Positions 143-23,158 of a stretch of DNA of 40,227 bases are shown in pieces. The first letter of the stretch is position 1, and each line of letters begins with the position of its first letter. The DNA is taken from positions 1 to 40,227 of the forward strand of contig NKIR01000017.1 in NCBI GenBank assembly GCA_002255985.1. The letters are read 5' to 3'. Under the pieces are notes generated by a model. It saw only the letters and a list, made by a program, of their open reading frames with translations. It made no database searches and was not told the DNA's origin. The position numbers and the translations under genes were made by a program. Origin of the DNA: Sphingomonadaceae bacterium PASS1 (lineage in GTDB: Bacteria; Pseudomonadota; Alphaproteobacteria; Sphingomonadales; Sphingomonadaceae).

Positions 143-165
143 TTCGCACCATGCTCTAGCGGAAA

Positions 166-783
166 TCAAGGAGCATAGAGTCGCTCGAATGCTTTTACAC
201 CGGCAGTGATCGAATTTTCGATGGCTTGCTGGCTCAAAGGGTTGTCTAGATTGAATATGGCATAATTGTGCACATAGCTCAAAACCAGCCCCCAATATTG
301 GTGCGACATAACTGTGCGATCCTCATCAATCAGATCGCCAGTTGAAACATAATGCTGGAGCATGTTTTCAATGCCCTGTTCCGCTTTCAAATAACCGGAG
401 GAATAATAAAGCATGCCCAGTTCGGGAAACCTTTGTGCTTCGCCAGCTATAAGTCGATGCAGGGATATCAGTTCGGGCTGCAATATGACCTTTGAATAAC
501 GTTTCGCAAATTCTAACAATGCAGGAGCTAGAGGGCCTTTTAAAAAAAATTCTTCATTTGACCCTTGAAAAATCTGCTCAACAATCCGCTTTAAGATCGC
601 CTCAAATAAAATCTCTTTTGACTTGAAGTGATTATACAATGTTGGTTTTGATATGCCCACAGATGCAACAATTGAATCCATGCTGGTCCCAACATAGCCT
701 TTGCTTAGAAATTCCTCCATTGCTCCTTTTAAGATCGTTTCGGCTTTTTCCCTTTTCCTAATCTGCCGGATTGCAGCTACCAT
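166..783 (-). CDS. TetR/AcrR family transcriptional regulator
   Basis: A 205-residue protein with a TetR helix-turn-helix in the first 60 residues (GYVGTSMDSIVASVGISKPTLYNHF) and an AefR-like C-terminal ligand-binding half. The ATG at 783 has a good ribosome-binding site, GAGGTGAAG, about six bases upstream. It is the last gene of the minus-strand unit (FAD oxidoreductase, aminotransferase, SRPBCC protein). It is separated from the SRPBCC gene by 106 bp that contain a perfect 18-bp palindrome, so it probably has its own autoregulated promoter. It is the only regulator found in the island and is the likely controller of the neighbouring catabolic genes. The ligand is unknown. Confidence 0.9.
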   Translation of the reverse strand: MVAAIRQIRKREKAETILKGAMEEFLSKGYVGTSMDSIVASVGISKPTLYNHFKSKEILFEAILKRIVEQIFQGSNEEFFLKGPLAPALLEFAKRYSKVILQPELISLHRLIAGEAQRFPELGMLYYSSGYLKAEQGIENMLQHYVSTGDLIDEDRTVMSHQYWGLVLSYVHNYAIFNLDNPLSQQAIENSITAGVKAFERLYAP

Positions 784-854
784 TTAGACTTCACCTCACG
801 ATATGTACATGGAGATTGAAAAATGCTTGTCACTGTTCGATCTGGTTTTTTGCG

Positions 855-872
855 CAAGTTTTGCAAAACTTG
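855..872. promoter_or_regulatory. Perfect 18-bp palindrome, probable TetR operator
   Basis: CAAGTTTTGCAAAACTTG is identical to its own reverse complement. It lies between the SRPBCC stop and the TetR start, 72-89 bases upstream of the regulator start codon. TetR-family proteins typically bind palindromes of 15-20 bp in their own promoter. No T-run follows on either strand, which argues against a terminator. I found no second copy by eye in the other intergenic gaps of the island. Confidence 0.65.
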
Positions 873-889
873 TCTATCGATTTCGCCAT

Positions 890-1453
890 TTATTTGGTAT
901 CCTTTGTACATCTGTCCAGATATTTCAGGCGTAGCGTATCAAGAGCTTTGCGTGTTCCGTCTTTGCTTAAACCCAGCAATGCACGCGCCTCATCTGTAGA
1001 CGGGAAATTGCCCGTTGCAACCCGTACCAGTGTTTGATTCTCGCCAATGGGGGTATAATAATATGTCGATACCGCTTCAGGAAAAAATTTGCCATAGATT
1101 TTCGGCGTCGTGACCGGGACCAGAGAAATCATCCGGCCATAGTCTATGCTGATAATGCGTGTGACAATCGTCTGGTCGTCGCCAAGTTTCCCCCCTTCGC
1201 CAACACGCCGCATCAACATTCCACCAACGCGGTAATCAATCGATGATTGTGCCATGCCCAACTGTTTCATCCCTTGAGGTGTAAACACCGCATCCCATAC
1301 TTCGCTTGCCGGCGCGCAAACCATCTCCTCTATCGCAAAACCGATAGTTTCCTGACGATTGCCATCAGTATCGTTAGCCGATGCGGCAATAGGGTTTGAT
1401 AAGGCTCCTATAGCGACAGCCAGGAGCGCAATTTTGATCAACTTATTGTACAT
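890..1453 (-). CDS. Exported SRPBCC (START-like) superfamily protein
   Basis: A 187-residue protein with an N-terminal signal peptide (KLIKIALLAVAIGALSNPIAASA, likely cleaved after residue 26) followed by one SRPBCC-type fold: a short beta strand, a VWDAVFTPQGM helix and a C-terminal long helix. The reading frame is open further upstream, but the ATG at 1453 is preferred because it begins the signal peptide and has GGAAGAGGAA just upstream. SRPBCC domains bind hydrophobic ligands, and some act as cyclases or dehydratases. Here the role is unknown. It lies 34 bp downstream of the aminotransferase in the same unit, so it may bind or transform a hydrophobic pathway intermediate in the periplasm (inference). 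Confidence 0.75.
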   Translation of the reverse strand: MYNKLIKIALLAVAIGALSNPIAASANDTDGNRQETIGFAIEEMVCAPASEVWDAVFTPQGMKQLGMAQSSIDYRVGGMLMRRVGEGGKLGDDQTIVTRIISIDYGRMISLVPVTTPKIYGKFFPEAVSTYYYTPIGENQTLVRVATGNFPSTDEARALLGLSKDGTRKALDTLRLKYLDRCTKDTK

Positions 1454-1487
1454 TGATAAATTCCTCTTCCTACTAGATATATGAAAC

Positions 1488-2747
1488 TTAATGATCCAGA
1501 TTTGCAACAAGTTCGACAAGCCCGGTCGGCGGCTGCAATAGGTGCTGACGTGCACTAACGGATTCCATCGCGCCATCTGCGGCTGAAAGAATGGATTCGA
1601 TGTCTTCAGTATGCAGGGAATTGCTCAAGAAGATATTGTGCCAAGGGTGAAAATAGACGCCTCTCGCCAGCAGTTCCGAGGCAAATGCAAACCCAAATCG
1701 GAAATCGGTGTCTTCAGCAAAGACGATTTGTGGTATCTGTACGGGCCCAGTCTGTTCGAGCGAAAAATCATGACGGGCAGCGATTTCGGTCAAGCCATTG
1801 CGTAATAGGATTCCAAGCTGTTCTATATGGGCATGGACATGCCGCTCCTTTACTATCCGAAGCGTTTGCAATGCTGCTGCCATTGGTACCGCGCCAAACC
1901 AATATGTACCTGAGCCATACACCGCGCGTGCGGCATCCCGGAATTTATCACAACCTGCAATGCCAGCTATCGGGTAGCCGTTGCCAAGTGCCTTGCCCCA
2001 GGTGCTGAGATCTGGCGCTGGGCCAATCAGCGACCAGCTACAGTCACGCGTTAGCCATAATCCGCCGCGAATATCATCAGCGATATGTACCGCGCCCGTT
2101 TGATCGCACAGAACCCGGACTTGTTTGGCAAACTCAGCACTGGGCAAATCCTGTGAGCCGACGCCATCATTGGCAAACAAGGGGGTGATGATCGCTGCCA
2201 GATCATCGCCAGCTGCGGCAACCGCGCGGCGAAGGCTGTCGATATCGCCCAGATCGAAATATCCCTGATGCGCCCGGTCTTCTTCCAGCAATCCTTTCCT
2301 TACAGGATTGCACCATGGTGCCGCTCCCAGATGAGCTGCTTTGTCAAACAAGATGATCCGCTTGCCGCTATGGGCGCGGGCGATCGCGCAGGCGAGCGTA
2401 TTGGCCTCGGTCCCTGTTTTCATGAACATTGCCCAGTCTGCATGTTGCACAAAATCGGTGAAGCTTTCCGCGAGTTCAATCATCACAGCCATAGGCAGCG
2501 AAGTCGTATCGCCCGCCACACGTTGCTGCGTTGCGGCAGCTTCAACCTCAGGGTTATTATAGCCTAATAGGTTGGTACCATAGCCTGCAACAAGGTCGAT
2601 GTAGCGAACGCCATCTTCTGCCCAGGCGTACGGGCCTTGCGCGCGGTTAAAAAATCTCGGGAAACCCGGCGGCATGAATGACGGGTTTAAGTGGCCGCAC
2701 ATTCCGCCAGGAAGGACAAGATCAGCCCGGCTGAGAAGGTTGCTCAC
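1488..2747 (-). CDS. Class III PLP-dependent aminotransferase (glutamate-1-semialdehyde aminomutase-like)
   Basis: A 419-residue fold-type I PLP enzyme of the class III group, which includes omega-amino acid and beta-amino acid aminotransferases and HemL. Visible landmarks are the TGTEAN phosphate-binding turn (about residues 111-116), an Asp pair in IADDIRGG (224-225) that should contact the PLP ring, and the Schiff-base lysine K252 in TWGKALGNGYP. The usual DEVxTGFR motif is altered to DDIRGGLW, and the usual YHG motif is AHLG, so substrate choice may differ from well-known members. The start is GTG at 2747, overlapping the upstream stop as GTGA with a GGAG site, which implies translational coupling to the FAD oxidoreductase. 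It probably removes or moves an amino group on a pathway intermediate. Confidence 0.85.
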   Translation of the reverse strand: MSNLLSRADLVLPGGMCGHLNPSFMPPGFPRFFNRAQGPYAWAEDGVRYIDLVAGYGTNLLGYNNPEVEAAATQQRVAGDTTSLPMAVMIELAESFTDFVQHADWAMFMKTGTEANTLACAIARAHSGKRIILFDKAAHLGAAPWCNPVRKGLLEEDRAHQGYFDLGDIDSLRRAVAAAGDDLAAIITPLFANDGVGSQDLPSAEFAKQVRVLCDQTGAVHIADDIRGGLWLTRDCSWSLIGPAPDLSTWGKALGNGYPIAGIAGCDKFRDAARAVYGSGTYWFGAVPMAAALQTLRIVKERHVHAHIEQLGILLRNGLTEIAARHDFSLEQTGPVQIPQIVFAEDTDFRFGFAFASELLARGVYFHPWHNIFLSNSLHTEDIESILSAADGAMESVSARQHLLQPPTGLVELVANLDH

Positions 2748-4717
2748 GTGATCTGCTCCATTGCCTGAATAATCGCCCGCTCACCTTCGCGTACGGCCAG
2801 AAACCATGCCTGGGTTCCGCAAAGTTCGGTGTGTCCAAAATGAATGCGTCCATATCCTTTACGCAGGACATCCGATGGGGGTGTTGCGCCATCCTTTGGA
2901 AAATAAAAACCTGGCGGTGGGACGACAAAAGCATGACCCCATCGGTTTGCGACGATCTGAGCGATGTCGCGCTTGGATTCAAAACCATGCGGGCCGAACA
3001 TTGCGTCCAGTTGCTTTGAAACCCGTTTGACAATATCCGCATGTGTCAGCTCGAACAATTGCTGCCTTGCGATAGCCGTTTCTGACGCAATGTCAGTATT
3101 TGCTGGTAAATCCGGTTGCAGAAACGGGATGTACATTGTCATCATAGCGGGCGTGGCAGGATCCAGTGGTTGTGCATCCGGCTCTAACCTCATCGGTGTC
3201 TTGATATTTGCATACCAGCCAAATCCGTCAAACCATCGAGCCGCTGAAATCCCAAGCCTATCCAGAAAGCGCCAGTTTTTGAGGCCAATGCTCAAATTGA
3301 GAATTGGTGCATGGTAAAACGCCTGCATCGCTTTACTGATATGCTCCGGCGCATCACGCAATATGTGTTTGTTTATCCATTGCCCCCCCGCCATCACGAC
3401 TGTCTTTGCCTGCACATGGTGGAGTTTGCCGCCCTTAATATAAGCGACCTCAACTGCCTTTGACGTCATTGGATCGCCCTTGTGCCGAACCGCGACGACC
3501 TGGGCGCCAATTTGCATCCTAACAGGTTGGTTTGGGCGCTCCCACGCTTCTGGGTTAACGCGTCCATAAATTACCTGCTGAAGAGAATTGTCGCCGGTGA
3601 TTGCATCTGGCCAGATCGCCTTGACAATATGGCGAACTATGTCTCCATTTCCTCCCGGAAAAGATGTCGCGTAGACTGGCCCGCTAAGTTTGGGCTGTTC
3701 TTCGGGGGGCAACGCAGCGGCAACAAAAGCCGCAACGCCAATACGCGCAGAGGCATCATCGACACCATAATAAGCCGACGTTAGATTGGACCCCATGGCC
3801 CCGCCCGAAGCGTAGGCATCGTCAAGTAATTTGAAAACCAGCGGATCGGAAATTCCGACTATATTCGTCAAAAATTCATGATAGCTCATGCTGTCCAGCC
3901 ATTGGCGCCAGTTCGGCGGAATAGACTTTGTCCAGCGAAACTCCAAAAGCCGCTTAACATCAGCGCGCGCCTTGGCTGAAATCGGGGCGTTATCGAAACC
4001 GTCCAGCCATGGATCTTTTACCCACTTTCCTGAACCTGTCAGCTGGGGGTCATCGAAGTAAAACCCGATATTTGCTTCTTTTGCACCTTCGGCGCGCGGG
4101 CTTGTGAAATCATTCATGGCGACCCGTATTTGTTTCGTCGTTCCGCTCATATTCTCATGCCAAGCCAGGCCGGTTTCAGGCAATCCGACCTCTGACCATA
4201 TCTCATGATGAACTTTAAGCGCACGAGCCGCCGTCAACGGCCAGATAAAAGCATTCGATCCCTGAGCACCAGATATCCGCGCACCATTAACGTCAAGGTC
4301 GGTTCGCTTCCCCTCTCCGCCAAACATGTTATTGTTTTCGAGAACCAAGCAGGATGCCTTGCCCAGTTTTTTGCAATAAAAAGCTGCCGACAAACCTGAA
4401 AACCCACCGCCCACTATCACGACATCAACTTTTTCTTCAGGCCCGCCTTCAGGTATTGTTTGCCAATAACCGTCACGGATCGAATGTGCGGCATTGACGA
4501 CATCGAACGTGTTGCCATTGGCCAGCCGATAGTCTCCAATGCCCCCAGGACCGCTCCAATCTGCGTTGAGCAGATCATATTCAGCCTTGGCGTGAGCTGT
4601 AGAATCCGAACTGGAAGGATTTCTGCATCCTTGAGTGGCCAACGATCCGCAAATTGCGGTGGCACCCAAGAGAAAGCCCCTCCTGGTCGCATTCCTGTTA
4701 AAGACATCAGATTTCAT
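2744..4717 (-). CDS. Tat-exported FAD-dependent oxidoreductase (amine oxidase-like)
   Basis: A 657-residue flavoprotein. The N-terminus carries a twin-arginine signal (TRRGFLLGA, RR at residues 12-13) and a Cys at position 31 after SLATQG that could be a non-canonical lipidation site. An FAD-binding Rossmann motif follows (VVIVGGGFSGLSAA, about residues 99-112). The C-terminus has the usual flavin-binding end in which FGHTELCGT is followed by a helix, as in the flavin amine oxidase/phytoene desaturase superfamily. The ATG at 4717 has AGGAG a few bases upstream, and the longer frame to 4756 lacks this. The pairing by GTGA overlap with an aminotransferase suggests oxidation of an amine or an unsaturated carbon chain outside the cytoplasm. 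The substrate is unknown. Confidence 0.8.
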   Translation of the reverse strand: MKSDVFNRNATRRGFLLGATAICGSLATQGCRNPSSSDSTAHAKAEYDLLNADWSGPGGIGDYRLANGNTFDVVNAAHSIRDGYWQTIPEGGPEEKVDVVIVGGGFSGLSAAFYCKKLGKASCLVLENNNMFGGEGKRTDLDVNGARISGAQGSNAFIWPLTAARALKVHHEIWSEVGLPETGLAWHENMSGTTKQIRVAMNDFTSPRAEGAKEANIGFYFDDPQLTGSGKWVKDPWLDGFDNAPISAKARADVKRLLEFRWTKSIPPNWRQWLDSMSYHEFLTNIVGISDPLVFKLLDDAYASGGAMGSNLTSAYYGVDDASARIGVAAFVAAALPPEEQPKLSGPVYATSFPGGNGDIVRHIVKAIWPDAITGDNSLQQVIYGRVNPEAWERPNQPVRMQIGAQVVAVRHKGDPMTSKAVEVAYIKGGKLHHVQAKTVVMAGGQWINKHILRDAPEHISKAMQAFYHAPILNLSIGLKNWRFLDRLGISAARWFDGFGWYANIKTPMRLEPDAQPLDPATPAMMTMYIPFLQPDLPANTDIASETAIARQQLFELTHADIVKRVSKQLDAMFGPHGFESKRDIAQIVANRWGHAFVVPPPGFYFPKDGATPPSDVLRKGYGRIHFGHTELCGTQAWFLAVREGERAIIQAMEQIT

Positions 4718-4903
4718 ATGATCTCCTACGCATTCGGTCGCCCTAGCTAAAACCAAATCTCGACTCGCAATGCAAAAGAACCCTGTGAAGAATCCAATTG
4801 CACTTCCAACACCGTGTAGTAAAGATAATTGGCATCGCCGGTCAACGCATGGCGATTCGGTAGGCTAGAAAAACGCAATTTTTTGGAAGGTAATGGGTGG
4901 CTT
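4718..4903. promoter_or_regulatory. Divergent intergenic region between the FAD oxidoreductase and CPBP protease genes
   Basis: This 186-bp gap must hold promoters for both directions. I see a 6-bp inverted repeat with an 11-bp spacer (ATCGCC at 4834-4839, GGCGAT at 4851-4856) and an A+T-rich stretch around 4819-4830. No strong sigma-70 promoter stands out, and the TetR-type 18-bp palindrome found near 855 is not present here. Confidence 0.35.
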
Positions 4904-5911
4904 ATGAACATTCGAAATGCAGTCAAGCAGCATTATTTCGCATTTTTTGCATTTTTTGTCCTGCTTTATGGTTTTCTCACATTTGTGTTTTTGCCATTGT
5001 GGTTGGGCGTAACATCAGCGCCTATCGCAGGCCATAATGTTCGGGACTTCGGCTATATGCCGTTACCGGTCGGGTTGAGTTTTCTGGCGAACCACCCAAG
5101 TCTGTTCCTCTTTTTTGGTTATGGTTTCTCCCCTTCGCTTGCTGGCCTGACGGTCGCTTTTCTTGGGTGGGGGGCACAGGGCATTCGCGACATCTTCTCC
5201 AGATTGCGGCCTTGGGGCAAAGGCGCATCCCGAGCATCCGCCTTGCGTGCTTATGGAACAATCATAGTGGCGGTCACATTGATGCTGTCGGGCATGTTGG
5301 GGCTGCACTATCTAATTGGTGGAAGCAGTGCGACAAATCCGTTGTTGGGAGTTGCGTTCTCCGGATTTCTTATCACATTCCTCGTTGGACTTTGGTTGAA
5401 TCCTGGCGGCGTGCTGGAGGAAATTTTTGGATATCGCGGATTTCTTTTGCCAACTCTGCTGAATGATGGCGTCGGTCCTTTAAAAGCGTCGATCATGATT
5501 GGAATACTGTGGGTCATCTGGCATATGGCAGTCCCTTTCAGTCCGCTGCTTGTTGACACGCGCAAAATCATAGCAGACCCACACTTCTGGACATTCCAAT
5601 TGCCGGCCCTGATTGGGTTCATGATTGTCGGATGCCCCGCACTGTCTGTGGTTATGACTCATTTCTACATAAAGACAGGCAGTAGTTTATCAGGAATACT
5701 GATCCACAGCGGATTTAACTCAACAATAATTTCCTTCGGTTTGAGCGTGCATATCGGGGGGCCGAGTTTTGCCTCACAGGATTCCTTGATCGTGTTCTGG
5801 TTGCTGACAGGACTTATGGCTGCGGCCGCACTGCTGATTATAACAATCTACGGCAGAGGCTTGGTTTCTCCGGAAATAACTGAGACCGTCAGTATAGAGC
5901 AGAATACGTAA
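4904..5911 (+). CDS. CPBP-family intramembrane metalloprotease-like protein (MlrA-like layout)
   Basis: A 335-residue, multi-span membrane protein of the CPBP (CAAX protease and bacteriocin-processing, Abi) family. The motifs are GGVLEEIFGYRGF (E172, E173, R178), WVIWH (W203, H207) and IHSGFN (H268, N272). Length and positions closely track microcystinase MlrA of sphingomonads, which is about 336 residues with, as I recall, catalytic E172 and H205 and oxyanion residues H260 and N264. The canonical EExxxR is altered: aligned on the RG, the second Glu is Ile174, while E173 takes the place of the catalytic Glu. I chose ATG 4904 as the start because the charged N-terminus leads into the first membrane helix. 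The site GGAAGG is rather far upstream. The gene begins the plus-strand unit with the receptor and two peptidases, fitting amide-bond cleavage of an imported substrate (inference). Confidence 0.8.
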   Translation: MNIRNAVKQHYFAFFAFFVLLYGFLTFVFLPLWLGVTSAPIAGHNVRDFGYMPLPVGLSFLANHPSLFLFFGYGFSPSLAGLTVAFLGWGAQGIRDIFSRLRPWGKGASRASALRAYGTIIVAVTLMLSGMLGLHYLIGGSSATNPLLGVAFSGFLITFLVGLWLNPGGVLEEIFGYRGFLLPTLLNDGVGPLKASIMIGILWVIWHMAVPFSPLLVDTRKIIADPHFWTFQLPALIGFMIVGCPALSVVMTHFYIKTGSSLSGILIHSGFNSTIISFGLSVHIGGPSFASQDSLIVFWLLTGLMAAAALLIITIYGRGLVSPEITETVSIEQNT

Positions 5912-5959
5912 AGCTAAAAATTTTACAGAGGGCACTAGGAAAAAGTAAGGGAGACTATC

Positions 5960-8089
5960 ATGAAATCGACTGCCAAGATCACGATCCGTAGAGTACTACT
6001 GACAGGCGCAGCACTAGTGCCTATGTCTGTTGCTCATGCTCAAACCCCGTCTAAGTCGGTTTCTGATGCGTCTACAGACAACATGGAAATCGTTGTTACA
6101 GCTGAACGGCGCGAAACAAAGTTGCAGGAAACACCGATTGCGATTGAGGCCTATTCAGGTGAGGCTCTTACCAAGCGCGGTGTGCTCGGCGTTGCCGAGC
6201 TCACGAGCATATCGCCTTCGCTCTACATTGAGCGATCAAGCGCGCAGGGTTATGTTTTTATTCGCGGTGTAGGAAACAACTCGGTGGGCCTTGGTGCAGA
6301 CGGCAGTTCCTCGGTGTACCTCGATGGAATTTATCTGTCGCGACCCGGCAGCGCGCTCTCGGAGCTTTTTGATATTGCTCAGGTTGAAGTGCTAAAAGGT
6401 CCTCAGGGAACGCTCTACGGCCGAAATGCCACCGGTGGTGCAATACTGATCAATACTGCGCGACCCGAGCTTGGAAAGACAGTTGTCAAGGGTAGAGTCG
6501 GTTATGGAAATTTTGACCGTATTCGCACAGAAGCAACAGTCAATCTTCCTTTTGGGGAGAATGGCGCGCTTCGTGTAAGCGGTCTGTACGGCGATGACGA
6601 CGGGTATCGCACCAATTTGCTGACGAACAAGGGCGTTGACGACCGCAAGGTAACTGCATTGCGTGGGCAATTGCTTTGGGACATCGGCGGTTGGTCCGCC
6701 CGGCTCTCCGGCGATTACATGAACACTCGGGGCAGTCTCGGTAATAGCCTTAAGCTCGACACAACTCAGCCAGCGCCTGTTGTTACCTTTTTTGGCGCAA
6801 CGGTTCCAGCCGATCCCTATGTCGACAGCTATGATTCTCCGAATTTTGCGCGTGTTTTGCAATGGGGTAGTAGCTTCACTTTTGAAGGACAGGCTGGCCC
6901 ACTTGCAGTCAAGAGTGTCACGAGTTTCCGCCGCACCGAACAAAATCGTTCCATCGACCTTGATTCAACGGCAATCAGGTTTGGTGCTACCGAATTTGGC
7001 GATGAGGTATCCGAGGCATTTACCCAGGATATTCAGTTGTCGAACGCAGAGCCCTCGGCATTTGAATATATCGTCGGCGCTTCATATCTGAGTGATGAGC
7101 TGACATCCGCCATTCGGGCAGCGGTGTATCCTTTCGGCCTTGTTGTCGAAAACGGATCCAGAAATAGCACGACATCAATAGCCGTTTTTGGCGAAGGCAA
7201 ATATAACTTTAACGACAACTTCGCGCTTGTTGTCGGCGGCCGTTACAGTCATGAGAAGAAGACGCAGCTTTTCAATACGGCATTGCCCAATCCCGTGTTT
7301 GACCGGAACAGTTGGAACGCGTTCACACCCAAGTTCGGGATTCAATATCAGGGCGACAATGCCCTCCTTTACGCGACCGTTACTAATGGTTTCAAGAGCG
7401 GTGGGTTTAATGCCAATGCTGTTCAGCCGCCCTTTAACGAAGAAAAAATCTGGAGCTATGAGGTCGGGGCCAAGACCGATTGGTTCGACAATAGGCTGAT
7501 TGCCAACTTTTCAGCATTTTACTACGATTATAAGGATCTACAAGTCAGCCAGGTCATTCTACCCAACCCTGTTCCCATCATAGCAAATGCGGGTACGGCC
7601 AAGGTCTATGGCTTGGAAGTCGATTTGATCGCGAGGCCTACCGATCGATTGCGGCTGACAGCTAGCGCAGCCTATCTGCATACCGAATATGGTAATCTCG
7701 TATTGGGGAATGACGAAATAGTCGGCTCACCATTGCAGAATGTGAATGGAAATCAATTTGCCCGGGCACCAAAACTGACACTGACAGGCGGTTTTGACTA
7801 TACTGCACCGATCGGGGATTCGCTTTTGATATTCAGCGGTAACGCCAATTACCGCAGCCGGATTTATTATACCGCGTTTGAAAGCCCAATTACTAGTCAA
7901 GGTGGCTATGTTCTGTTGGATGCGCGCATAGCTTATCAAACGGGTCCTTGGGAACTTTCTGTGTTTGGGCGGAATCTGACTGATAAATTCTACAAGACAC
8001 TCGTGACTTCGAGCCCCTCATTTACGGGAACGCAGTTTCTGGTGAGTGAACCGCGGACATACGGTGTCAGCATCAGCTATGGCTTTTGA
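5960..8089 (+). CDS. TonB-dependent outer-membrane receptor
   Basis: A 709-residue receptor. It has a signal peptide (residues 1-27, cleavage after VAHA), a TonB-box-like MEIVVTAERR, a plug domain with LYGRNATGGAILINT, and a long beta-barrel ending in a terminal YGF, as expected for barrel insertion. The site AAGGGAGA precedes the ATG. It is of the sphingomonad type associated with uptake of large organic substrates; no siderophore or cobalamin genes are nearby. Its place between a CPBP protease and two exported peptidases suggests it imports the island's substrate, perhaps a peptide-like or amphipathic molecule too large for porins (inference). Confidence 0.93.
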   Translation: MKSTAKITIRRVLLTGAALVPMSVAHAQTPSKSVSDASTDNMEIVVTAERRETKLQETPIAIEAYSGEALTKRGVLGVAELTSISPSLYIERSSAQGYVFIRGVGNNSVGLGADGSSSVYLDGIYLSRPGSALSELFDIAQVEVLKGPQGTLYGRNATGGAILINTARPELGKTVVKGRVGYGNFDRIRTEATVNLPFGENGALRVSGLYGDDDGYRTNLLTNKGVDDRKVTALRGQLLWDIGGWSARLSGDYMNTRGSLGNSLKLDTTQPAPVVTFFGATVPADPYVDSYDSPNFARVLQWGSSFTFEGQAGPLAVKSVTSFRRTEQNRSIDLDSTAIRFGATEFGDEVSEAFTQDIQLSNAEPSAFEYIVGASYLSDELTSAIRAAVYPFGLVVENGSRNSTTSIAVFGEGKYNFNDNFALVVGGRYSHEKKTQLFNTALPNPVFDRNSWNAFTPKFGIQYQGDNALLYATVTNGFKSGGFNANAVQPPFNEEKIWSYEVGAKTDWFDNRLIANFSAFYYDYKDLQVSQVILPNPVPIIANAGTAKVYGLEVDLIARPTDRLRLTASAAYLHTEYGNLVLGNDEIVGSPLQNVNGNQFARAPKLTLTGGFDYTAPIGDSLLIFSGNANYRSRIYYTAFESPITSQGGYVLLDARIAYQTGPWELSVFGRNLTDKFYKTLVTSSPSFTGTQFLVSEPRTYGVSISYGF

Positions 8090-8136
8090 CATTAGTTTTC
8101 GACCTTAACTTTCGGGTCAAGAGCAAGATCAGATAG

Positions 8137-8170
8137 CAAGGTTGCCAGCAACGCGTTGCTTGCAACCTTG
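8137..8170. terminator. 34-nt nested inverted repeat after the receptor gene
   Basis: Arms CAAGGTTGC (8137-8145) and GCAACCTTG (8162-8170) enclose a second perfect palindrome, AGCAACGCGTTGCT (8147-8160). The whole stretch is self-complementary except for one opposed base pair (C8146 against T8161). It lies in the 171-bp gap between the receptor and peptidase genes. No T-run follows on either strand, so a classical rho-independent terminator is not certain. An mRNA-stabilising hairpin or a protein-binding site is also possible. Confidence 0.45.
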
Positions 8171-8260
8171 TCGAGTGCAACTTGATTATGGAAACTGCTT
8201 AAAGAAACAGTTCAGGCTGGATCGCTTTGTCCGCCCACTGCCCGTTTTGTGGAGAAGACG

Positions 8261-9484: not shown

Positions 9485-9485
9485 A

Positions 9486-12783: not shown

Positions 12784-12848
12784 AAAACCCAATAATAACA
12801 ACGACTAGCAGGGGCGTGCACGACCGAATTCGGCCGTTGAAAACCACA

Positions 12849-12878: not shown

Positions 12879-12899
12879 ACAATAAATGGAGGTATTTAG

Positions 12900-14516: not shown

Positions 14517-14541
14517 CAACATTTATGCGAAAAGGTAGTGC

Positions 14542-15786: not shown

Positions 15787-15827
15787 TGTCAGCATAGCAT
15801 CAGTTTCAGTAAAGGGAATTCGTTCTC

Positions 15828-16946
15828 ATGAGGTTCAAAGCTGCAATATCAAAAAGTGATGAGAGCAGGTTTCAGATTGCTGACGTTGTTCTCGGCCCCT
15901 TACGAAAAGATGAAGTACTGGTGCGAATCGTCGCTACCGGCATTTGCCATACCGATGCGATTTGTCATGAAGGCCACGTGCCCATTCCCAAGCCAATAAT
16001 CCTCGGTCACGAGGGGGCGGGCATAGTAGAAAGAATCGGTGCGGATGTTGGTGATTTGAAACCGGGCGATCATGTTTGCCTAACATTCAATAGCTGCGGC
16101 GAATGTAGCAATTGCAAGGATTCCGCTCCCTTTTACTGTGAGTATTTCTTTCCAGCAAATATTCTTGGGCGACGTCTGGATGGATCAACGGCGATTACGC
16201 AAGACAATGATGTCACAGGGGACGCAGCGATCAGCGCTCACTTTTTTGGTCAGTCTTCATTCGCCGAATATTCCGTCGCAAACCGGAATAATGTAATCAA
16301 AGTACCGCATGATGTTCCCCTCGACATGCTTGGGCCGCTGGGATGCGGAATTCAAACCGGTGCAGGTGCAGTATGGAACGTTTTGAAAACTGCTAGAGAA
16401 GACAGGCTGGCGATATTTGGGGTCGGCACCGTAGGGCTGTCAGCGATAATGGCCGCGCGCATTTCGCAGCCCGCGATGCTGATTGCTGTTGATCCCAATC
16501 CCATACGGCGGGCATTGGCTCTGGAACTTGGCGCAACCCATGCCGTGGATCCGACGCAGGCCCAGTTTCCGGGGTGGTTTGATGCGCACGCGGGTCGATT
16601 AACGCAGGCCATAGATACGACGGGCAATCCCGAAGTTGTAAAATCGATTGTCAATAGTCTGGGCGCACGCGGTACTTTGATCCTGCTGGGTGCCGCCGCC
16701 CAAGGAACGGAACTGAGATTTGATCTTATGCACATGCTGAACAACGGAATAACGATAAAATCGGTAATTGAGGGCGAAAGCAACAGCCGAAAAATGATCC
16801 CGCACCTTATTGGTCTTTATCAGCAGGGACAGTTCCCATTTGACCGAATTCTGCGGTTTTATGATTTTGCAGACATCGATATAGCGATGGCAGACCATTT
16901 GAGTGGTGAGACTATCAAGCCGATACTGCGGATCGGCAACGCTTAG
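15828..16946 (+). CDS. Zinc-dependent medium-chain alcohol dehydrogenase
   Basis: A 372-residue MDR enzyme. Catalytic zinc ligands are C40 in GICHTD and H61 in GHEGAG. The structural zinc site is in the SCGECSNCKDSAPFYC stretch. The NAD-binding Rossmann motif is FGVGTVGLSA. It resembles aryl- and allyl-alcohol dehydrogenases and formaldehyde-dehydrogenase-type enzymes in arrangement. The site AAAGGGAA precedes the ATG. It lies 41 bp after the P450 and 47 bp before the thiolase start, and probably oxidises the P450-generated alcohol to the aldehyde used by the ALDH. Confidence 0.92.
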   Translation: MRFKAAISKSDESRFQIADVVLGPLRKDEVLVRIVATGICHTDAICHEGHVPIPKPIILGHEGAGIVERIGADVGDLKPGDHVCLTFNSCGECSNCKDSAPFYCEYFFPANILGRRLDGSTAITQDNDVTGDAAISAHFFGQSSFAEYSVANRNNVIKVPHDVPLDMLGPLGCGIQTGAGAVWNVLKTAREDRLAIFGVGTVGLSAIMAARISQPAMLIAVDPNPIRRALALELGATHAVDPTQAQFPGWFDAHAGRLTQAIDTTGNPEVVKSIVNSLGARGTLILLGAAAQGTELRFDLMHMLNNGITIKSVIEGESNSRKMIPHLIGLYQQGQFPFDRILRFYDFADIDIAMADHLSGETIKPILRIGNA

Positions 16947-16993
16947 ATGAAGCCGGACTTTTGCTCAATAGCTTTCCCCTGGACTTTAACGCA

Positions 16994-18205
16994 ATGACCG
17001 ATGCATTCATTTACGATTCGGTCCGTTCCCCGCGAGGGAAGGGGCGACCCGGCGGTTCCTTGCATGCAGTGACGCCGCTCAACCTCGCTGCGCAGATGCT
17101 GCGTGCCATTCAGTCGAGAAATGCGATTGACACAGCGGATTTGGACGAGGTGGTGCTCGGCTGCTCCACACCCATTGGGGAGCAGGGGGCGGTTCTGGCA
17201 CGCACCGCATTGCTGATGGCGGATTATTGTGAAACCGTTTCCGGACTGCATGTAAGCCGGTTTTGTGCCTCTGGCCTCGATGCGGTCAACATCGCTGCGG
17301 CCAAAGTGATGAGTGGGGAAGCCGATTTTACAATTGGTGGCGGCGTTGAAAGCATGAGCCGTGTACCGCTTGGCAGCGATGGCGGCGCGTGGATGACCGA
17401 CCCGTCGGCCGCGTTCCAAACATATTTCGTGCCGCAGGGCATCAGCGCAGATTTGCTGGCAACGAAATATCATTACGCGCGCGAGGCACTAGATGCGTTT
17501 GCTGCGACCAGTCACGCTAAAGCTGTGGCTGCGTGGGATGAAGGCCGCTTTAAGAATTCCATCGTCCCAGTTTGTGATCAGCTTGGTCGCGTTGTTTTGG
17601 AAGTTGACGAAACAATTCGCCGTGAGACCAATGCTGCCCAAATCGGCAAGCTTGAGCCCTCATTCGCATCGATCGGAGAAGCTGATCCTGGCTTCGACAC
17701 ATTGGCGCTCATGAAATATCCTGAAGTAGAACGCATCATTCATAGCCATCACGCAGGCAATTCGTCCGCCATTGTCGATGGTGCTGCGGCAATCATGATT
17801 GGTAATGATATCATCGCCAAGAAATATCAGTTGCGGCCGCGTGCGCGCTTTGTGGGGTGCGCATCTATTGGTTCGGAACCCACAATGATGCTGACCGGAC
17901 CCGTTACGGTAACGTCAAAATTGTTAAACCGATTGGGATTAACTCCGGACGATATCGATATATTTGAGGTCAACGAGGCATTTGCGAGCGTGGTTCTGCA
18001 TTTTGCCGATAGCTTACATATCCCGATGGAAAAGATTAATCCCAATGGCGGCGCAATCGCCATGGGTCATCCGCTCGGCGCAACGGGTGCCATTCTGGTC
18101 GGCACTGCTCTGGATGAGCTGGAGCGAACGGGGGGATCGAAAGCGTTGATCACTTTATGCGTGGGTGCAGGAATGGGCGTGGCGACTGTCATTGAACGCG
18201 TATGA
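16994..18205 (+). CDS. Thiolase (acetyl-CoA acyltransferase)
   Basis: A 403-residue thiolase with the acyl-accepting cysteine C91 in RFCASGLDA, the NEAFA loop, the base His in GHPLGATGA and the second Cys in TLCVGAGMG. It carries out thiolytic cleavage of 3-oxoacyl-CoA to acetyl- or propionyl-CoA plus a shortened acyl-CoA. An alternative TTG start at 16961 exists, but the family normally begins near the ATG at 16994 (MTDAFIYDSVRSPRGK). No clear ribosome-binding site is visible. It overlaps the FadJ-like gene by ATGA, which makes the two a beta-oxidation pair. It is a different protein from the pcaF thiolase at 35464. Confidence 0.92.
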   Translation: MTDAFIYDSVRSPRGKGRPGGSLHAVTPLNLAAQMLRAIQSRNAIDTADLDEVVLGCSTPIGEQGAVLARTALLMADYCETVSGLHVSRFCASGLDAVNIAAAKVMSGEADFTIGGGVESMSRVPLGSDGGAWMTDPSAAFQTYFVPQGISADLLATKYHYAREALDAFAATSHAKAVAAWDEGRFKNSIVPVCDQLGRVVLEVDETIRRETNAAQIGKLEPSFASIGEADPGFDTLALMKYPEVERIIHSHHAGNSSAIVDGAAAIMIGNDIIAKKYQLRPRARFVGCASIGSEPTMMLTGPVTVTSKLLNRLGLTPDDIDIFEVNEAFASVVLHFADSLHIPMEKINPNGGAIAMGHPLGATGAILVGTALDELERTGGSKALITLCVGAGMGVATVIERV

Positions 18206-20436
18206 CTCCAGAATTTACACCGAGATCATCGAAAGCAGGTGCAGATATGCCGATGACAACTATCGATTTTACTGTTGACCCTGACGGTGTGGCTGTTGTG
18301 AATATCAATGTACCAGATCGTCCTGTTAACGTTACCACGCCAAATTTTTTCGATGATTTCGAGCATGCCATTTCCCGCATTGCAAATTATCCGAGCATTG
18401 TGGGTGCGATCATCACGTCATCCAAGGCCGGCAGTTTCATGGCAGGCGGCGACCTTACCAACATGGGCGCTCTTTTTTCCTCTGCGCTGCTGCCAAATGG
18501 GCAAATTGACATCGATCGGTTGTTGGTAACCTGCACACGGTTTTCCGATCTGTGTCGAAAATTGGAAACATGCGGAAAACCGACCATATCAGCGATAAAC
18601 GGCTCGGCGCTTGGCGGTGGCTTGGAAATCTGCCTTTCCAGCCATTACCGGATGGTCGCGGATGATCCCAAGATCAAGTTGGGGCTTCCCGAAGTCCAGG
18701 TCGGTCTTATGCCCGGTGCCGGCGGCACACAAAGGTTGCCGCGGTTGATCGGACTGCCAAAAGCTCTGCCGCTTCTCATTGATGGCACTTTGCTGTCGCC
18801 ATTCGAGGCTCTAAATCTGGGCATCATAGATGCAGTAGTGCCTGCACAAAATCTTTTGAGCAAAGCAAAAGCATGGATCATGCGCAGCCCGGTATCCCAG
18901 CAGCCATGGGACGATCGCAAATTCCGTTTTCCCGGTGGTACGACACAGAATAACCCCTCAATCATGCAACTGTTCGTTGCAGGCAATGCGCGAGTCAAGC
19001 GTAAGGAAACCGGGCCAACGCCAGCGCCACGAGCGATCATGTCGAGCCTGTATGAAGGCAGCCTTTTGCCAATTGTCGATGCGTTGACCGTGGAAAGCCA
19101 ATATTTCTGCAAGCTTGCCATGATGTCGCAAACAACGAGTAAAATCCGGACCCTCTTTCTTGAAAAACCGGCCGCCCAGAAACGTGCCAGATTGATAGCA
19201 AGTACCGTAGAAAAACCTATCCGCAAGATTGGAATTTTGGGTGCCGGCATGATGGGTTCAGGCCTTGCCATCGCCTGCGCCATGGCCGGGATTGAGGTTG
19301 TGCTTGTTGACCGAAATAGCGAGATTGCCGCGCAGGCCAAGTCCAAGCTCACTGCGTATTTGGATAAGCAAATTTCACGTGGCACGTTAAATCCGCTGAC
19401 CACAAAACAATGGCTTTCTGCCATTTTGATAACGGATGAATACGGCCATGTTGGCGGTGCTGACGTGATTATCGAAGCCGTATTTGAAGATCGGGATCTG
19501 AAATCGGATGTCATTAAAAAGGTTGCTACAATCGTTGGTCATGGGACGGTTATAGCTTCCAACACCTCAACCATCCCAATTTCCGATCTGGCCCGGTCAT
19601 GTGAAAGACCGGAGCGATTTATTGGGCTGCATTTTTTCTCTCCAGTCGAAAAAATGGATATGGTCGAGACTATTCGGGGACGTGAAACGTCTGACGAAAC
19701 AACTGCAATTGCGATGAAACTTGTTTCAATTCTTAAAAAGACGCCGATTATCGTTTCGGATTCGCCTGGTTTTTATACATCCCGGTGTTTCGAGACTTAT
19801 TTGCAGGAAAGCCTGTTGATGATTGCCGAAGGCGTGTCGCCGGCACTTGTCGAAAATGTGGCAAGATTTTCGGGGATGCCAATGGCGCCGTTAGCGCTAA
19901 TCGACACGCTTTCTATCGATCTTGCGCAAAGTATCGCAGCGCAAACTAAAAGAGCCGGAGAGGATTCGGTCGATGCGCGCGCAGCCGATGATGTCAGGGA
20001 CCGGATGTTGAGCCTTGGCCGTCTCGGCCGCAAGGTAAAAAAAGGTTTCTATGATTATCTGGATGACGGTAGCATAGATTCCATCTGGGGTGGCCTTGCT
20101 TCTGAGTTTATCGCGTGTGATGACTTTACGCAGCCATCTGCTGACATCGTCCGCGACCGGTTGATCTACCGTCAAGTTGTCGAGTGTGTACAGTGTCTTG
20201 AAGAAGATATCATACATAGTCCTGCGGACGGTGATCTTGGCGCGGTATTGGGCTGGGGTTTCTTGCGGGGTTTTGGCGGGCCGTTTTCGTATCTGGATTG
20301 CATTGGATTACCTGCTGCATCTGCAAAATTGCAACAATTAGAGCGCGCCTATGGCAATCGTTTTCAGGTGCCAAGACTAATATGTGATTTGGCCGGCTCA
20401 AACTCTCAATTCTTTAGCGCAGGTCATGCAGCGTGA
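18202..20436 (+). CDS. fadJ: Bifunctional enoyl-CoA hydratase / 3-hydroxyacyl-CoA dehydrogenase (FadJ/FadB-like)
   Basis: A 744-residue fatty-acid oxidation alpha subunit. The N-terminal crotonase domain (about 20-300) has the oxyanion-hole stretch NGSALGGGLEIC and catalytic-Glu regions LPEVQVG. The central 3-hydroxyacyl-CoA dehydrogenase (about 340-640) has ILGAGMMGSGLA for NAD and HFFSPVEKMDMVE with the catalytic His, followed by the C-terminal helical domain. The ATG at 18202 overlaps the thiolase stop as ATGA. A second ATG at 18247 has a better site (GCAGGT) and begins where most homologues begin, so the protein may be 15 residues shorter. It hydrates and oxidises enoyl-CoA intermediates before thiolysis. 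Confidence 0.92.
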   Translation: MTPEFTPRSSKAGADMPMTTIDFTVDPDGVAVVNINVPDRPVNVTTPNFFDDFEHAISRIANYPSIVGAIITSSKAGSFMAGGDLTNMGALFSSALLPNGQIDIDRLLVTCTRFSDLCRKLETCGKPTISAINGSALGGGLEICLSSHYRMVADDPKIKLGLPEVQVGLMPGAGGTQRLPRLIGLPKALPLLIDGTLLSPFEALNLGIIDAVVPAQNLLSKAKAWIMRSPVSQQPWDDRKFRFPGGTTQNNPSIMQLFVAGNARVKRKETGPTPAPRAIMSSLYEGSLLPIVDALTVESQYFCKLAMMSQTTSKIRTLFLEKPAAQKRARLIASTVEKPIRKIGILGAGMMGSGLAIACAMAGIEVVLVDRNSEIAAQAKSKLTAYLDKQISRGTLNPLTTKQWLSAILITDEYGHVGGADVIIEAVFEDRDLKSDVIKKVATIVGHGTVIASNTSTIPISDLARSCERPERFIGLHFFSPVEKMDMVETIRGRETSDETTAIAMKLVSILKKTPIIVSDSPGFYTSRCFETYLQESLLMIAEGVSPALVENVARFSGMPMAPLALIDTLSIDLAQSIAAQTKRAGEDSVDARAADDVRDRMLSLGRLGRKVKKGFYDYLDDGSIDSIWGGLASEFIACDDFTQPSADIVRDRLIYRQVVECVQCLEEDIIHSPADGDLGAVLGWGFLRGFGGPFSYLDCIGLPAASAKLQQLERAYGNRFQVPRLICDLAGSNSQFFSAGHAA

Positions 20437-20472
20437 TCGCGGTAACCCGAGCATCGCCAAGAAAACGATCAC

Positions 20473-20886
20473 ATGATGACCGTTGACGCCAGAAATCAAA
20501 TCGAAACACTGCTGTCGGTATCGCCCTATCACCGGTTTCTTGATCTGAAGCTGGTCGCGCTGGATAACGATGGGGGTGAGCTGCGATTGTTGATGCCTTA
20601 TCAGGAGCGGCTTCTTGGCGACATGATTTCCCGCCGTTACCATGGCGGTGCCATCGCAGGCTTAATTGACGCCACTGGCGCGCTTGCGATGATGGCGAAA
20701 GTCGGACGGGATACCCCAAGCATAACGATCAGTATTGACTATCTTCGGCCTGCAGTTGCGACCGACCTCTTTGCTAAAGCAAAAATTCAGAAAAGTGGCA
20801 AGAAAATTGGAATAGTGGCAGTAGAGGTAATTGATATCGATAACAGAATTGTCGCTATTGGCCGAGTTATTTTGTCATTATCTTAA
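20473..20886 (+). CDS. PaaI-type hotdog-fold acyl-CoA thioesterase
   Basis: A 137-residue single hotdog domain of the PaaI group, with YHGGAIAGLIDATGALA as the catalytic helix region (the usual HGG plus acidic residue) and the SITISIDYLRPA beta strand. It hydrolyses acyl- or phenylacetyl-CoA thioesters and is often found in catabolic operons as a CoA-releasing safety valve. It is 36 bp after the FadJ-like gene, so probably the same transcript. The start may be either of two adjacent ATGs at 20473 and 20476. Confidence 0.85.
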   Translation: MMTVDARNQIETLLSVSPYHRFLDLKLVALDNDGGELRLLMPYQERLLGDMISRRYHGGAIAGLIDATGALAMMAKVGRDTPSITISIDYLRPAVATDLFAKAKIQKSGKKIGIVAVEVIDIDNRIVAIGRVILSLS

Positions 20887-20941
20887 ATCCACTGTTTAAA
20901 TGCACTAATATTCAAGTACGTATATCACGGGATTCGCGTCT

Positions 20942-21844
20942 ATGATGGAATTTGTTAACTCGATTATGCCGTTTTTTATAATATTATTGATGGCGGGTGT
21001 GGGATTGAGCGTTTCCTTTCAGCAATTGGGCCAGTCTTTGGGTAAATGGAAGATCATGCTCGCGACTGTTTTTTCGATGCAGGTTATCTTGCCACTGATA
21101 TGCATTGGGCTTGCCAGCATGCTGACGTTGCAGCCGGACATCGCAGTCGGCTTTGTTTTGCTGGCGAGCTGCCCTGGCGGGCTTTTCTCGAACTATCTCG
21201 TGCTGCTCGCAAGGGCAGATACAGCGTTGTCCATTTCCTTGACCGTTTTTATCACCCTCATTTATGCAATAACGGCCCCGCTTTGGGCGGGTGCGGCTCT
21301 GCATTTGTTCATGCCGGAAGGCACCGCAATCCGCGGGTATGATCCATGGAGCGTTCTTATATCGCTTGTCGGCTTTGTACTGGTTCCGACGGGCGTTGGA
21401 GTGGCACTGAAAACAAAGCGACCCATTCTCGCAGACCGGATTGGTGCGGTCATCCGTAACCCTGCGGCAATCGGGTTATTGCTGATGTATTTTTTGATAC
21501 TTTATGACCTTAGAGATACTCTAATAATTGGTGCAAAAGCGGCAATTATCCCAGTTTTTCTATTCAACCTTTTCGGCGCTGCATTGGGAGCGGGAATTTC
21601 AGTATTTCTGGGATGGAAATCACAGCAGGGCATCCCTGTTATTGTAGAGCATGTTGTGCGGCAGGAGGGCACAGGAATTTTCATTGCATCCGCACTGATT
21701 GGCAGCGTGGCGATGACGTATCCTATGCTGCTCAACTCTTTGACTGGCATGATTATCGGTTTGTCACTCGCGGTGTTTTTCAGACGCAAAGCGCGCTTGT
21801 CAGCCAAAAAATCTATAATAGATCCGAGAAACAGAAATGACTGA
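20942..21844 (+). CDS. BASS-family (bile acid:Na+ symporter-like) membrane transporter
   Basis: A 300-residue integral membrane protein with about nine or ten hydrophobic segments. It has the family signature LLASCPGGLFSNYLVLLARADTALS, in which SCPGGxxSN is the sodium/substrate crossover region, and a short basic C-terminal tail. BASS proteins move bile acids, pantoate, pyruvate or other organic acids with sodium. Coupling to the preceding catabolic genes and to an aminotransferase by an 8-bp overlap suggests transport of an organic acid substrate or product across the inner membrane. The direction is not known. Confidence 0.85.
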   Translation: MMEFVNSIMPFFIILLMAGVGLSVSFQQLGQSLGKWKIMLATVFSMQVILPLICIGLASMLTLQPDIAVGFVLLASCPGGLFSNYLVLLARADTALSISLTVFITLIYAITAPLWAGAALHLFMPEGTAIRGYDPWSVLISLVGFVLVPTGVGVALKTKRPILADRIGAVIRNPAAIGLLLMYFLILYDLRDTLIIGAKAAIIPVFLFNLFGAALGAGISVFLGWKSQQGIPVIVEHVVRQEGTGIFIASALIGSVAMTYPMLLNSLTGMIIGLSLAVFFRRKARLSAKKSIIDPRNRND

Positions 21845-23123
21845 AACAATCGAAATGCGCTCAGACATTATAGCGCGGATTGCCACGCTTGCATCGTCCC
21901 GTGTGGCCAATGCTTTCTGGCCCGATGGGCTGGGCAGTCCTTCTTTTATGGCCACAATGTCACAGCTCTACCCTGTTTTTGGTAGAAGCCTGAATTCTGG
22001 CTCAACAACAGGGCAGGGTGATGGCACCCTTTTCAATTCAGGCAAGCAGATCGATATTGGGGTCGGCCATTATCTCTCTGCACCACCAGAAGCGATCACT
22101 GCGGCTATCCAATCGCTTCAGGCGGGACATACACGCTATACCCATGTCCCTAATCTTTATCGGGCTATAATCGCAAAATATCTGGTTGAACAGCATGTCG
22201 ATGTGCATGAACAGCAGATTGTTACCACCGCCGGAGCGAGGACCGCAATGGGCTTGGTATTTTCCGCATTGCTGGAACCAGGACAGACTGTGGTTATCGG
22301 AGATCCGGATTATATTGGGCTGACGCATATGGCGGCATCGATTGGGTGCCGGATCGTGCGCCCGGCGTCAAAGCGGGCAAGCACAGGTGAATTGCGACCG
22401 GACATAGATCGCATTGTTACCGAAATTGAAGCCGGGGCAAGGATGTTCGCTTTTACAAATCCTTGTAATCCAACGGGCTATATCTGGAGCCGCGCGGAAA
22501 TTGCGGCGATTGTGGCAGCTGCGCAAAAATCTGGCACGTGGATCATGGCCAACGAAATTTATGACAAATTGTATTTTGATGACACTGACCATATCAGCTT
22601 GGTTCAATTCGAGGATACCGATCGGACAATCGTGGTGTCCGGCACCGCGAAAAACTACGACATGACCGGGTTCGGGCTTGGATGGATTGTCGGGTCGGGC
22701 AAATTGGTTGCCCTCTTGTCAGATTGGCAATTTATAACCCATAGCGGGGCACCAGATGCCCTATCGCAATACGCAGCGGCGGCAGCTCTATGCGATCCCG
22801 TGCGCGACCGTCACCCTGCCGCTTCGCGAAAACTACTTAAGGAAAACTGGATATTGCTGCGCGACGCTTTGCAGCAGGCCGGTTTGGAGACCTGTGGCGC
22901 GCCCAAAGCGGGGCAGTTTGCATTTCCTTACATCGGCGGCGACGACATTGCGCTCAGCCTCCAGATGATGCGTGAATTTGATGTCTTGGTTACGCCCGGC
23001 GGCATTTGGGGCGGCATGGGTGCTGGTCATATCAGGGTTGCCCTGTCGAATCCGGCCGAAACGCATTGTGAAGGAGTCGCACGGCTTATGACAGGGTTGG
23101 GAATCAAAGTAAGCCAGAATTGA
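21837..23123 (+). CDS. Class I/II PLP-dependent aminotransferase
   Basis: A 428-residue fold-type I aminotransferase. It has the substrate/cofactor motif FTNPCNPTG, the tyrosine region NEIYDKLYFDD and the Schiff-base lysine K272 in SGTAKNYDMTGFGLGW. The C-terminal Arg contacting the substrate carboxylate lies in HIRVALSN. It transfers an amino group between an amino acid and a 2-oxo acid and may release nitrogen from the island substrate or from peptide products. The start overlaps the transporter stop by 8 bp, so the genes are translationally coupled. It is the second aminotransferase of the island, after the unrelated class III one at 1488. Confidence 0.9.
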   Translation: MTETIEMRSDIIARIATLASSRVANAFWPDGLGSPSFMATMSQLYPVFGRSLNSGSTTGQGDGTLFNSGKQIDIGVGHYLSAPPEAITAAIQSLQAGHTRYTHVPNLYRAIIAKYLVEQHVDVHEQQIVTTAGARTAMGLVFSALLEPGQTVVIGDPDYIGLTHMAASIGCRIVRPASKRASTGELRPDIDRIVTEIEAGARMFAFTNPCNPTGYIWSRAEIAAIVAAAQKSGTWIMANEIYDKLYFDDTDHISLVQFEDTDRTIVVSGTAKNYDMTGFGLGWIVGSGKLVALLSDWQFITHSGAPDALSQYAAAAALCDPVRDRHPAASRKLLKENWILLRDALQQAGLETCGAPKAGQFAFPYIGGDDIALSLQMMREFDVLVTPGGIWGGMGAGHIRVALSNPAETHCEGVARLMTGLGIKVSQN

Positions 23124-23134
23124 TGCTGGCAAGT

Positions 23135-23153
23135 GCCTGCGTCGGTCGCAGGC
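23135..23153 (+). terminator. Hairpin after the class I aminotransferase, next to the IS left end
   Basis: GCCTGCG (23135-23141) and CGCAGGC (23147-23153) form a 7-bp stem with loop TCGGT, 11 bases after the aminotransferase stop. The IS481 element starts only five bases later, so any natural T-run may have been removed by the insertion. It could be a truncated rho-independent terminator. Confidence 0.4.
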
Positions 23154-23158
23154 AAAGG

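Follow-up and report, generated by a model that had tools for sequence, protein, structure and literature searches.

A 23,000-base gene block in a sphingomonad, seemingly picked up and proposed to serve uptake and breakdown of an amine-bearing oily natural product

The described systems closest to the locus treated here, positions 143 to 23,158 of contig NKIR01000017.1 (C27) of Sphingomonadaceae bacterium PASS1, are terpenoid oxidation by P450terp, fumonisin catabolism, and microcystin breakdown by the mlr island. In P450terp chemistry an allylic methyl is oxidised to an alpha,beta-unsaturated acid, and peptidases and aminotransferases are not known from the P450terp operon. For fumonisin catabolism of Sphingopyxis sp. 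MTA144 the cluster record is FJ426269, and its aminotransferase FumI deaminates a long-chain amino polyol (PMC2933618). MlrA is described in PMC12474180 as a 336-aa CPBP protease with the residues E172, W176, W201, H205, H260, and N264. According to PMC6563193, mlr genes form an island of lower guanine-plus-cytosine (GC) content in sphingomonads, and the genes for breakdown of Adda, the beta-amino acid of microcystin, had not been elucidated as of 2019.

The window analysed is the whole of C27 (40,227 bases), part of an assembly of 3.07 Mb in 30 contigs that is 95.9% complete. It carries a 23,000-base block of 17 genes that seems to have been picked up and to serve the uptake and breakdown of an amine-bearing, probably peptide-linked oily natural product. 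We see even chances that this block was gained by horizontal transfer and is an island for the uptake and catabolism of a hydrophobic compound that bears an amine, is probably linked to a peptide, and has an oxidisable methyl. Observed are the protein families with their catalytic motifs, a lowered GC content, the rarity of two genes (CPBP and AT1), and the recurrence of a CPBP-ACS-ALDH-BASS-AT1 core in another genus; the substrate, the localisation of the proteins, the sequence of the steps, and the regulation we infer. Literature searches turned up no paper that, by its title or the opening of its abstract, deals with a cluster of such make-up, a weak absence given that few subscription journals were covered. 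The same statement in an earlier note on this DNA thus stands uncontradicted, though the logic of the block is that of the mlr microcystin island.

Core genes shared with a second genus

Five of the 17 island genes have relatives standing together in another genome of the family collection (G127). They encode a CPBP intramembrane protease of the MlrA superfamily (4904..5911, + strand), an aldehyde dehydrogenase (ALDH; 11368..12783, +; PF00171), an acyl-CoA ligase (ACS; 12900..14516, +; PF00501), a BASS-family symporter (20942..21844, +; PF01758), and a class I/II pyridoxal phosphate aminotransferase-fold enzyme (AT1; 21837..23123, +; PF00155). Within 8 kb of G127 the order is CPBP (on the - strand), PhyH dioxygenase, ACS, ALDH, BASS, and AT1, with a GntR/FCD regulator gene after AT1 on the opposite strand. 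Order and adjacency of BASS and AT1 are the same as in the island. Unlike the island, the G127 locus has the PhyH dioxygenase in place of a cytochrome P450 and an alcohol dehydrogenase (ADH), and genes for the flavin adenine dinucleotide (FAD) oxidoreductase (FADox), the FumI-type aminotransferase (AT3), S10, thiolase, and FadJ are not beside it. GC content is 50-53% within the locus, 57-61% to its left, and rises slowly to 59% on its right. P0002 and P0142, two proteins of Aquisediminimonas profunda, are encoded by the locus in identical form; NCBI places this species in the Sphingomonadales, family Aquisediminimonadaceae, whereas the genome collection puts G127 in the family of the window genome.

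At E<=0.001, CPBP matched 5 of 298 family genomes, its own included, and was absent from 5 congeners within this search. Outside its own genome a strong match was found only in G127 (49%, 310 bits), the next scores being those of the second CPBP of its own genome (72 bits), located on contig C1 and 31% identical, and then 58 bits. In the same 298 genomes AT1 likewise has a strong relative only in G127, its own genome aside (243 bits, next 119), and BASS has its best match outside its own genome in the same place (196 bits, next 123, among 39 chosen genomes). Among 7996 scored candidates for CPBP, which came from a pool of 5.8 billion proteins, four homologues were found at E<=0.001 (94%, a chimeric fragment, 49%, and 40%); for AT1, 19 of 7996 scored candidates passed E<=1e-20, its own copy counted. 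Since CPBP and AT1 lie in different halves of the island and occur together in G127, genes of both halves appear to travel together, and judged by these matches a core of the island is a real unit. A more distant BASS-AT1 pair (G083:C1:297153-302191) is situated beside a DAO flavoenzyme gene, a GntR/FCD regulator gene, and amidohydrolase genes, and BASS-AT1 looks like a transport-and-amino-group pair. Genes in G083, in contig C1 of the window genome, and in the mlr-bearing genome G380 were picked by a longest-ORF (open reading frame) rule, some of these ORFs being over-long or on the wrong strand.

With 36.7 bits against PF02517 (cutoff 22.4) and the catalytic E, H, H, and N in place, CPBP belongs to its family. 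It keeps E172, E173, R177, W201, H205, H260, and N264 of MlrA. As an MlrA orthologue it was rejected, due to an identity of 23% in the alignment (27% over a 156-aa local match), the replacement of W176 by Y, and one additional residue in the EExxxR motif. Its scores against MlrA (44-51 bits) are similar to those against other sphingomonad CPBPs outside G127 and its own C1 copy (51-58 bits). Pattern scans for CPBP in genome_contigs and viral_contigs returned 99, 50, and 10 stretches, none of which was confirmed; the known carrier A. profunda was missed too, so that this result has little weight. The metagenome protein P0003 joins the FADox N-terminus to the CPBP C-terminus, though both genes are divergent in the window, and is probably an assembly chimera. 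In G108 and G277, CPBP genes with an MlrA-like EELGWRG motif directly adjoin a class III aminotransferase gene, a pairing that recurs.

Gene content, composition and borders

Pfam scans took in 18 ORFs between 166 and 24121, including that of the right-hand insertion sequence (IS). All families named for 143..23158 by the earlier note were recovered, among them TetR, two aminotransferases, CPBP, TonB, S10, DUF885, and BASS. Four genes occupy the - strand on the left, namely those for a TetR/AefR-type regulator (166..783; PF00440, PF14246), an exported-looking protein with a hydrophobic N-terminal segment (890..1453; SRPBCC-like by eye, no family in Pfam or NCBIfam), the class III aminotransferase AT3 (1488..2747; PF00202; PDB FumI 6hbs), and FADox (2744..4717; PF01266, PF13450), an exported oxidoreductase of the twin-arginine translocation (Tat) type resembling spermidine dehydrogenase. 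The remaining genes are on the + strand. CPBP is followed by a TonB-dependent receptor (5960..8089; PF00593, PF07715), an exported S10-type serine carboxypeptidase or alpha-beta hydrolase (8249..9484; PF00450, 27.5 bits, cutoff 21.9; GESYG motif) for which no PDB relative was found, and an exported DUF885 protein, a putative metallopeptidase (9486..11330; PF05960, E 1.3e-134; HEGQPGHH motif). Beyond ALDH and ACS come the P450terp-like P450 (14542..15786; PF00067), a zinc ADH (15828..16946; PF08240, PF00107), a thiolase (16961..18205; NF006090, 621 bits, cutoff 514), a FadJ-type enoyl-CoA hydratase/3-hydroxyacyl-CoA dehydrogenase (18202..20436; PF00378, PF02737, PF00725; below the FadJ cutoff), and a 4HBT hotdog thioesterase (20473..20886; PF03061), before BASS and AT1. 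Likely starts inside the listed ORFs are 4904 for CPBP, 9486 for DUF885, and 4717 for FADox, and neighbours among the 17 genes lie at most 186 nt apart. Searches for catalytic motifs found them intact in P450, thiolase, ALDH, ligase, S10, DUF885, and CPBP; for the AT1 lysine the search pattern gave no match, and an SGTAK segment is visible by eye.

Upstream of the TetR gene lies the perfect 18-nt palindrome CAAGTTTTGCAAAACTTG (855..872), which occurs once in the window when up to 3 mismatches are allowed, against 0.02 copies expected, and is possibly the operator of the TetR gene itself. A second copy, e.g., in the divergent region 4717-4904, was not found in the window.

GC content is 50.9% in 143-23157 versus 57.1% to the right of the IS. 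At third codon positions (GC3) it amounts to 0.48-0.56 for 16 of the 17 genes, from the exported protein of unassigned family to AT1, and to 0.60-0.67 for seven genes of the right flank. DNA comparison with 30 congeners covered 166-9000 and 24194-32896. Matches to the left 8.8 kb (166-9000) did not exceed about 120 nt, and the right flank (24194-32896) gave just two short ones; with only short matches for both stretches, all tested parts of C27 appear accessory. No match was obtained by megablast of 143-23158 against plasmid records, nor by tblastn of CPBP, AT1, and S10 against these records at the limits used.

The earlier note had described the island as flanked by two IS481 elements of the same direction. 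The direction holds, both pieces being on the + strand, but of the left element only the 142-nt 3' end is present (1..142), cut by the contig edge. This end shares 96.5% identity with a copy elsewhere in the assembly, on contig C4, but 83%, over 123 nt, with the complete right IS481 (23158..24165, ends set by eye; transposase 23216-24121, NF033577, 271 bits, cutoff 224). Thus the flanking elements are different members and no matching pair, and a composite transposon with two matching IS ends was rejected since the elements differ and the left copy ends at the contig edge. The C4 copy speaks weakly, by sequence likeness, for C27 belonging to the assembly.

Outside the island, 24194-37466 holds a separate aromatic catabolic cluster with genes for MarR, an amidase, an HsaA-like monooxygenase, a Rieske dioxygenase pair, an SDR, muconate cycloisomerase, catechol dioxygenase, CoA transferase, thiolase, and PcaD, which we take to resemble an indole-acetate (iac) plus catechol pathway.

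Proposed pathway and competing explanations

In the proposed pathway the TonB receptor would carry the compound to the periplasm, the membrane-bound CPBP and the exported S10 and DUF885 proteins would cut peptide or ester bonds, and the Tat-exported FADox would oxidise the amine. BASS would move the acidic product inward. In the cytoplasm AT3 and AT1 would take off amino groups, the P450 would hydroxylate the methyl, ADH and ALDH would take it on to the acid, the ligase would form the CoA ester, and FadJ and thiolase would shorten the chain. TetR may regulate the island.

AT3 has its best solved structure by far in FumI (6hbs, 410 bits, next 124 in the PDB search), with 190 of 411 aligned residues identical (46%), and this full-length similarity, far above that to other solved class III enzymes, makes it a FumI-type enzyme. 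FADox, with a twin-arginine N-terminus by eye, is closest in the PDB to the spermidine dehydrogenase SpdH (7d9i, E 3.7e-42). Eight of 298 family genomes encode full-length FADox relatives (37-41%), while matches of any kind, in 71 of the 298, are mostly short nucleotide-binding stretches; of nine FADox flanks compared, a TonB receptor adjoins in three and AT3 in none. Plasmid relatives of FADox were seen in two Gemmatirosa records (35-36%). The best PDB match of the P450 is P450terp (1cpt, 372 bits, E 2.5e-110); the rule for membership in CYP108, the P450terp family, is more than 40% identity to P450terp. Like the P450terp system, the island surrounds this enzyme with ADH, ALDH, ligase, and thiolase, but its gene gaps leave no room for a ferredoxin gene.

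Several observations weigh against a single acquired pathway. The earlier note had counted on a full set from hydroxylation to beta-oxidation, which did not hold up: neither an acyl-CoA dehydrogenase nor a P450 redox partner (ferredoxin, ferredoxin reductase) was found by Pfam among the ORFs scanned, and without the former there is no complete beta-oxidation operon. The lack of an acyl-CoA dehydrogenase would fit an allylic methyl, whose oxidation gives an acid with the alpha,beta double bond already in place. The same note had joined all genes into one pathway and looked to their order in sphingomonad genomes. A core spanning both halves does keep together in G127, which supports the idea in part, but most genes have no synteny support: 5 of 17 are syntenic there, and TetR, the exported protein of unassigned family, FADox, AT3, S10, P450, ADH, thiolase, FadJ, and thioesterase have no match in 54 kb of G127. 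Even within the core, ACS (31%) and ALDH (46%) of G127 do not stand out from their counterparts at other loci (27-30% and 46%, respectively). Not counted were a G127 P450 (46% alike) some 44 kb away from AT1, an S10-like match about 6 kb from this P450, and weak DUF885 and TonB matches (27-30%) about 7-15 kb from CPBP.

Furthermore, the FumI-type family comprises 927 proteins at E<=1e-60 among 7992 scored candidates, and 119 listed relatives of AT3, its own near-identical copy aside, are 47-53% identical to it, which marks a broad family. P450terp-like P450s occur in 118 of 298 family genomes at E<=1e-85. Judged by such counts, FumI-type aminotransferase and P450terp-like P450 are too widespread to point to a substrate. 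AT3 relatives occur in 13 plasmid records, the ten listed at 43-49%, and the plasmid neighbours of FumI-type genes are diverse. At the four of these 13 loci that were inspected, ABC-transporter genes are close by in three (with an oligopeptide annotation in one), class II aldolase and sugar kinase genes in two, and P450, ALDH, and TonB receptor genes in one; the P450 of one such locus has no similarity to the island P450 at E<=1e-5. A structure model of CPBP (mean pLDDT 72.8, 8 sequences) gave no match in the PDB at E<=0.001 and is uninformative. Finally, with a right flank nearly matchless in congeners, C27 could be wrongly binned.

A possible, though rather unlikely, explanation is that two or more unrelated catabolic modules were joined by insertion sequences, with amine or peptide breakdown on the left and P450-led alcohol or terpenoid oxidation on the right. 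In its favour, twelve of the 17 genes are missing from the G127 locus, and among 16 P450 loci compared, three have both ACS and ALDH nearby and none has CPBP, AT3, or FADox. The genome has IS481 copies or pieces in several locations, yet C27 carries just the two flanking ones according to an IS481 search, and no transposase domain was found by Pfam in the island proteins scanned. TetR and the exported protein of unassigned family have the lowest GC3 of the island (0.43 and 0.48), whereas GC3 is even from AT3 to AT1, across both halves. It also counts against separate modules that CPBP from the left and BASS-AT1 from the right are neighbours in G127.

That the island degrades a sphinganine analogue or sphingoid base, with AT3 as a true FumI in a fumonisin-like pathway, we consider improbable. 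The FumI-type AT3 is what the island has in common with the system of strain MTA144, its match to FumI lying well above that to the next solved structure, and chain oxidation could be the work of P450, ADH, ALDH, and ligase. However, AT3 is equally near or nearer to many uncharacterised relatives, namely the 119 listed above. FumD is of the carboxylesterase type, and no Pfam family of this type was found in the ORFs scanned; CPBP, S10, and DUF885 would be left unexplained as well. Readings as breakdown of prenylcysteine peptides or of steroid or bile-acid side chains, suggested by P450, BASS, and ligase similarities, were dropped because no protein reached a specific family cutoff.

Relation to mlr islands and an mlr-type island in the same genome

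A published mlrA primer, searched in 397 family genomes at up to 2 mismatches, matched exactly in one (G380:C30). The 336-aa protein encoded there has the six named MlrA residues at the named positions, and its gene adjoins a PTR2/MFS gene and an M81 gene with an MlrC_C domain. Around it (G380:C30:406000-441500) are situated genes for M19 and S58 peptidases, an amidohydrolase, two DAO enzymes, a class III aminotransferase, C26, SDR, acyl-CoA dehydrogenase, ECH, thiolase-like and MaoC proteins, two ligases, a CoA-transferase III, and two TonB-receptor matches. A further mlr-type island (G242:C2:73700-99800) encodes an MlrA 87.5% identical to that of G380.

The mlr and window islands share a CPBP-family protease, TonB receptors, peptidases, an FAD oxidoreductase, a class III aminotransferase, acyl-CoA ligases, and beta-oxidation genes, whereas S10, DUF885, P450, ADH, and BASS set the window island apart; the logic is common and the genes differ. 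Within the 18 ORFs neither the MlrB family (beta-lactamase-like serine hydrolase) nor the MlrC family (M81; PF07364, PF07171) was found, nor the MlrD family (PTR2/MFS), BASS being the sole inner-membrane transporter family. Judged by its predicted families, the island is thus no direct member of the mlr group with respect to MlrA, MlrB, MlrC, and MlrD, and the mlr island is its closest working analogue.

An unexpected find, by gene similarity, is a divergent mlr-type island on another contig of the window genome (C1:1-35700). Of 32 script-called ORFs in these 35.7 kb, 20 match the G380 stretch at E<=1e-10 and 12 have no match. Identities reach 89% and 60% for TonB receptors, 85% for the thiolase-like protein, 76% for S58, 75% and 57% for ligases, 74% each for class III aminotransferase and CoA-transferase, 72% for SDR, and 68% for DAO; two M81 genes are 50% and 36% identical to the single G380 M81 gene, and the MlrA homologue (C1:18319-19269) is 40% identical over 310 residues. 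Flanking peptidase, aminotransferase, ligase, and beta-oxidation genes are common to C1 and both mlr islands. The genome may be a binned assembly, and C1 may be wrongly placed in it as well.

With its MlrA homologue, two M81 genes, class III aminotransferase, ligases, and TonB receptors matching the mlr island, C1 invites the idea that the window island is its accessory and serves the same microcystin- or nodularin-like peptide or Adda. The window would supply P450, ADH, and ALDH, none of them matched on C1 at E<=1e-5. In the G380 contig, matches to ADH (41%), ALDH (45%), and thiolase (37%) occupy 399-403 kb, a stretch of higher GC content beside its mlr island. Yet P450, FADox, and AT1 have no match in 72 kb around the G380 mlr genes, and the window has its own receptor and protease, both distant from those of C1 (TonB 26-27%, CPBP 31%), so that we give this idea little chance.

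More speculatively, and with low odds, the uptake-and-catabolism island may represent a second, mlr-independent class of CPBP-led sphingomonad islands, in which a CPBP-BASS-AT1 core is combined with interchangeable oxygenases (P450 or PhyH) and degrades other amino-polyketides or lipopeptides. A host with both types would then be a specialist peptide consumer. For microcystin the first breakdown genes are known, and for other cyanobacterial peptides none are named in the literature examined; if a CPBP-BASS-AT1 core recurs outside mlr, its genes would serve as markers of such pathways. Beside the islands of G380 and G242, C1 shows flanking genes travelling with MlrA, which makes them candidates for the breakdown of Adda.

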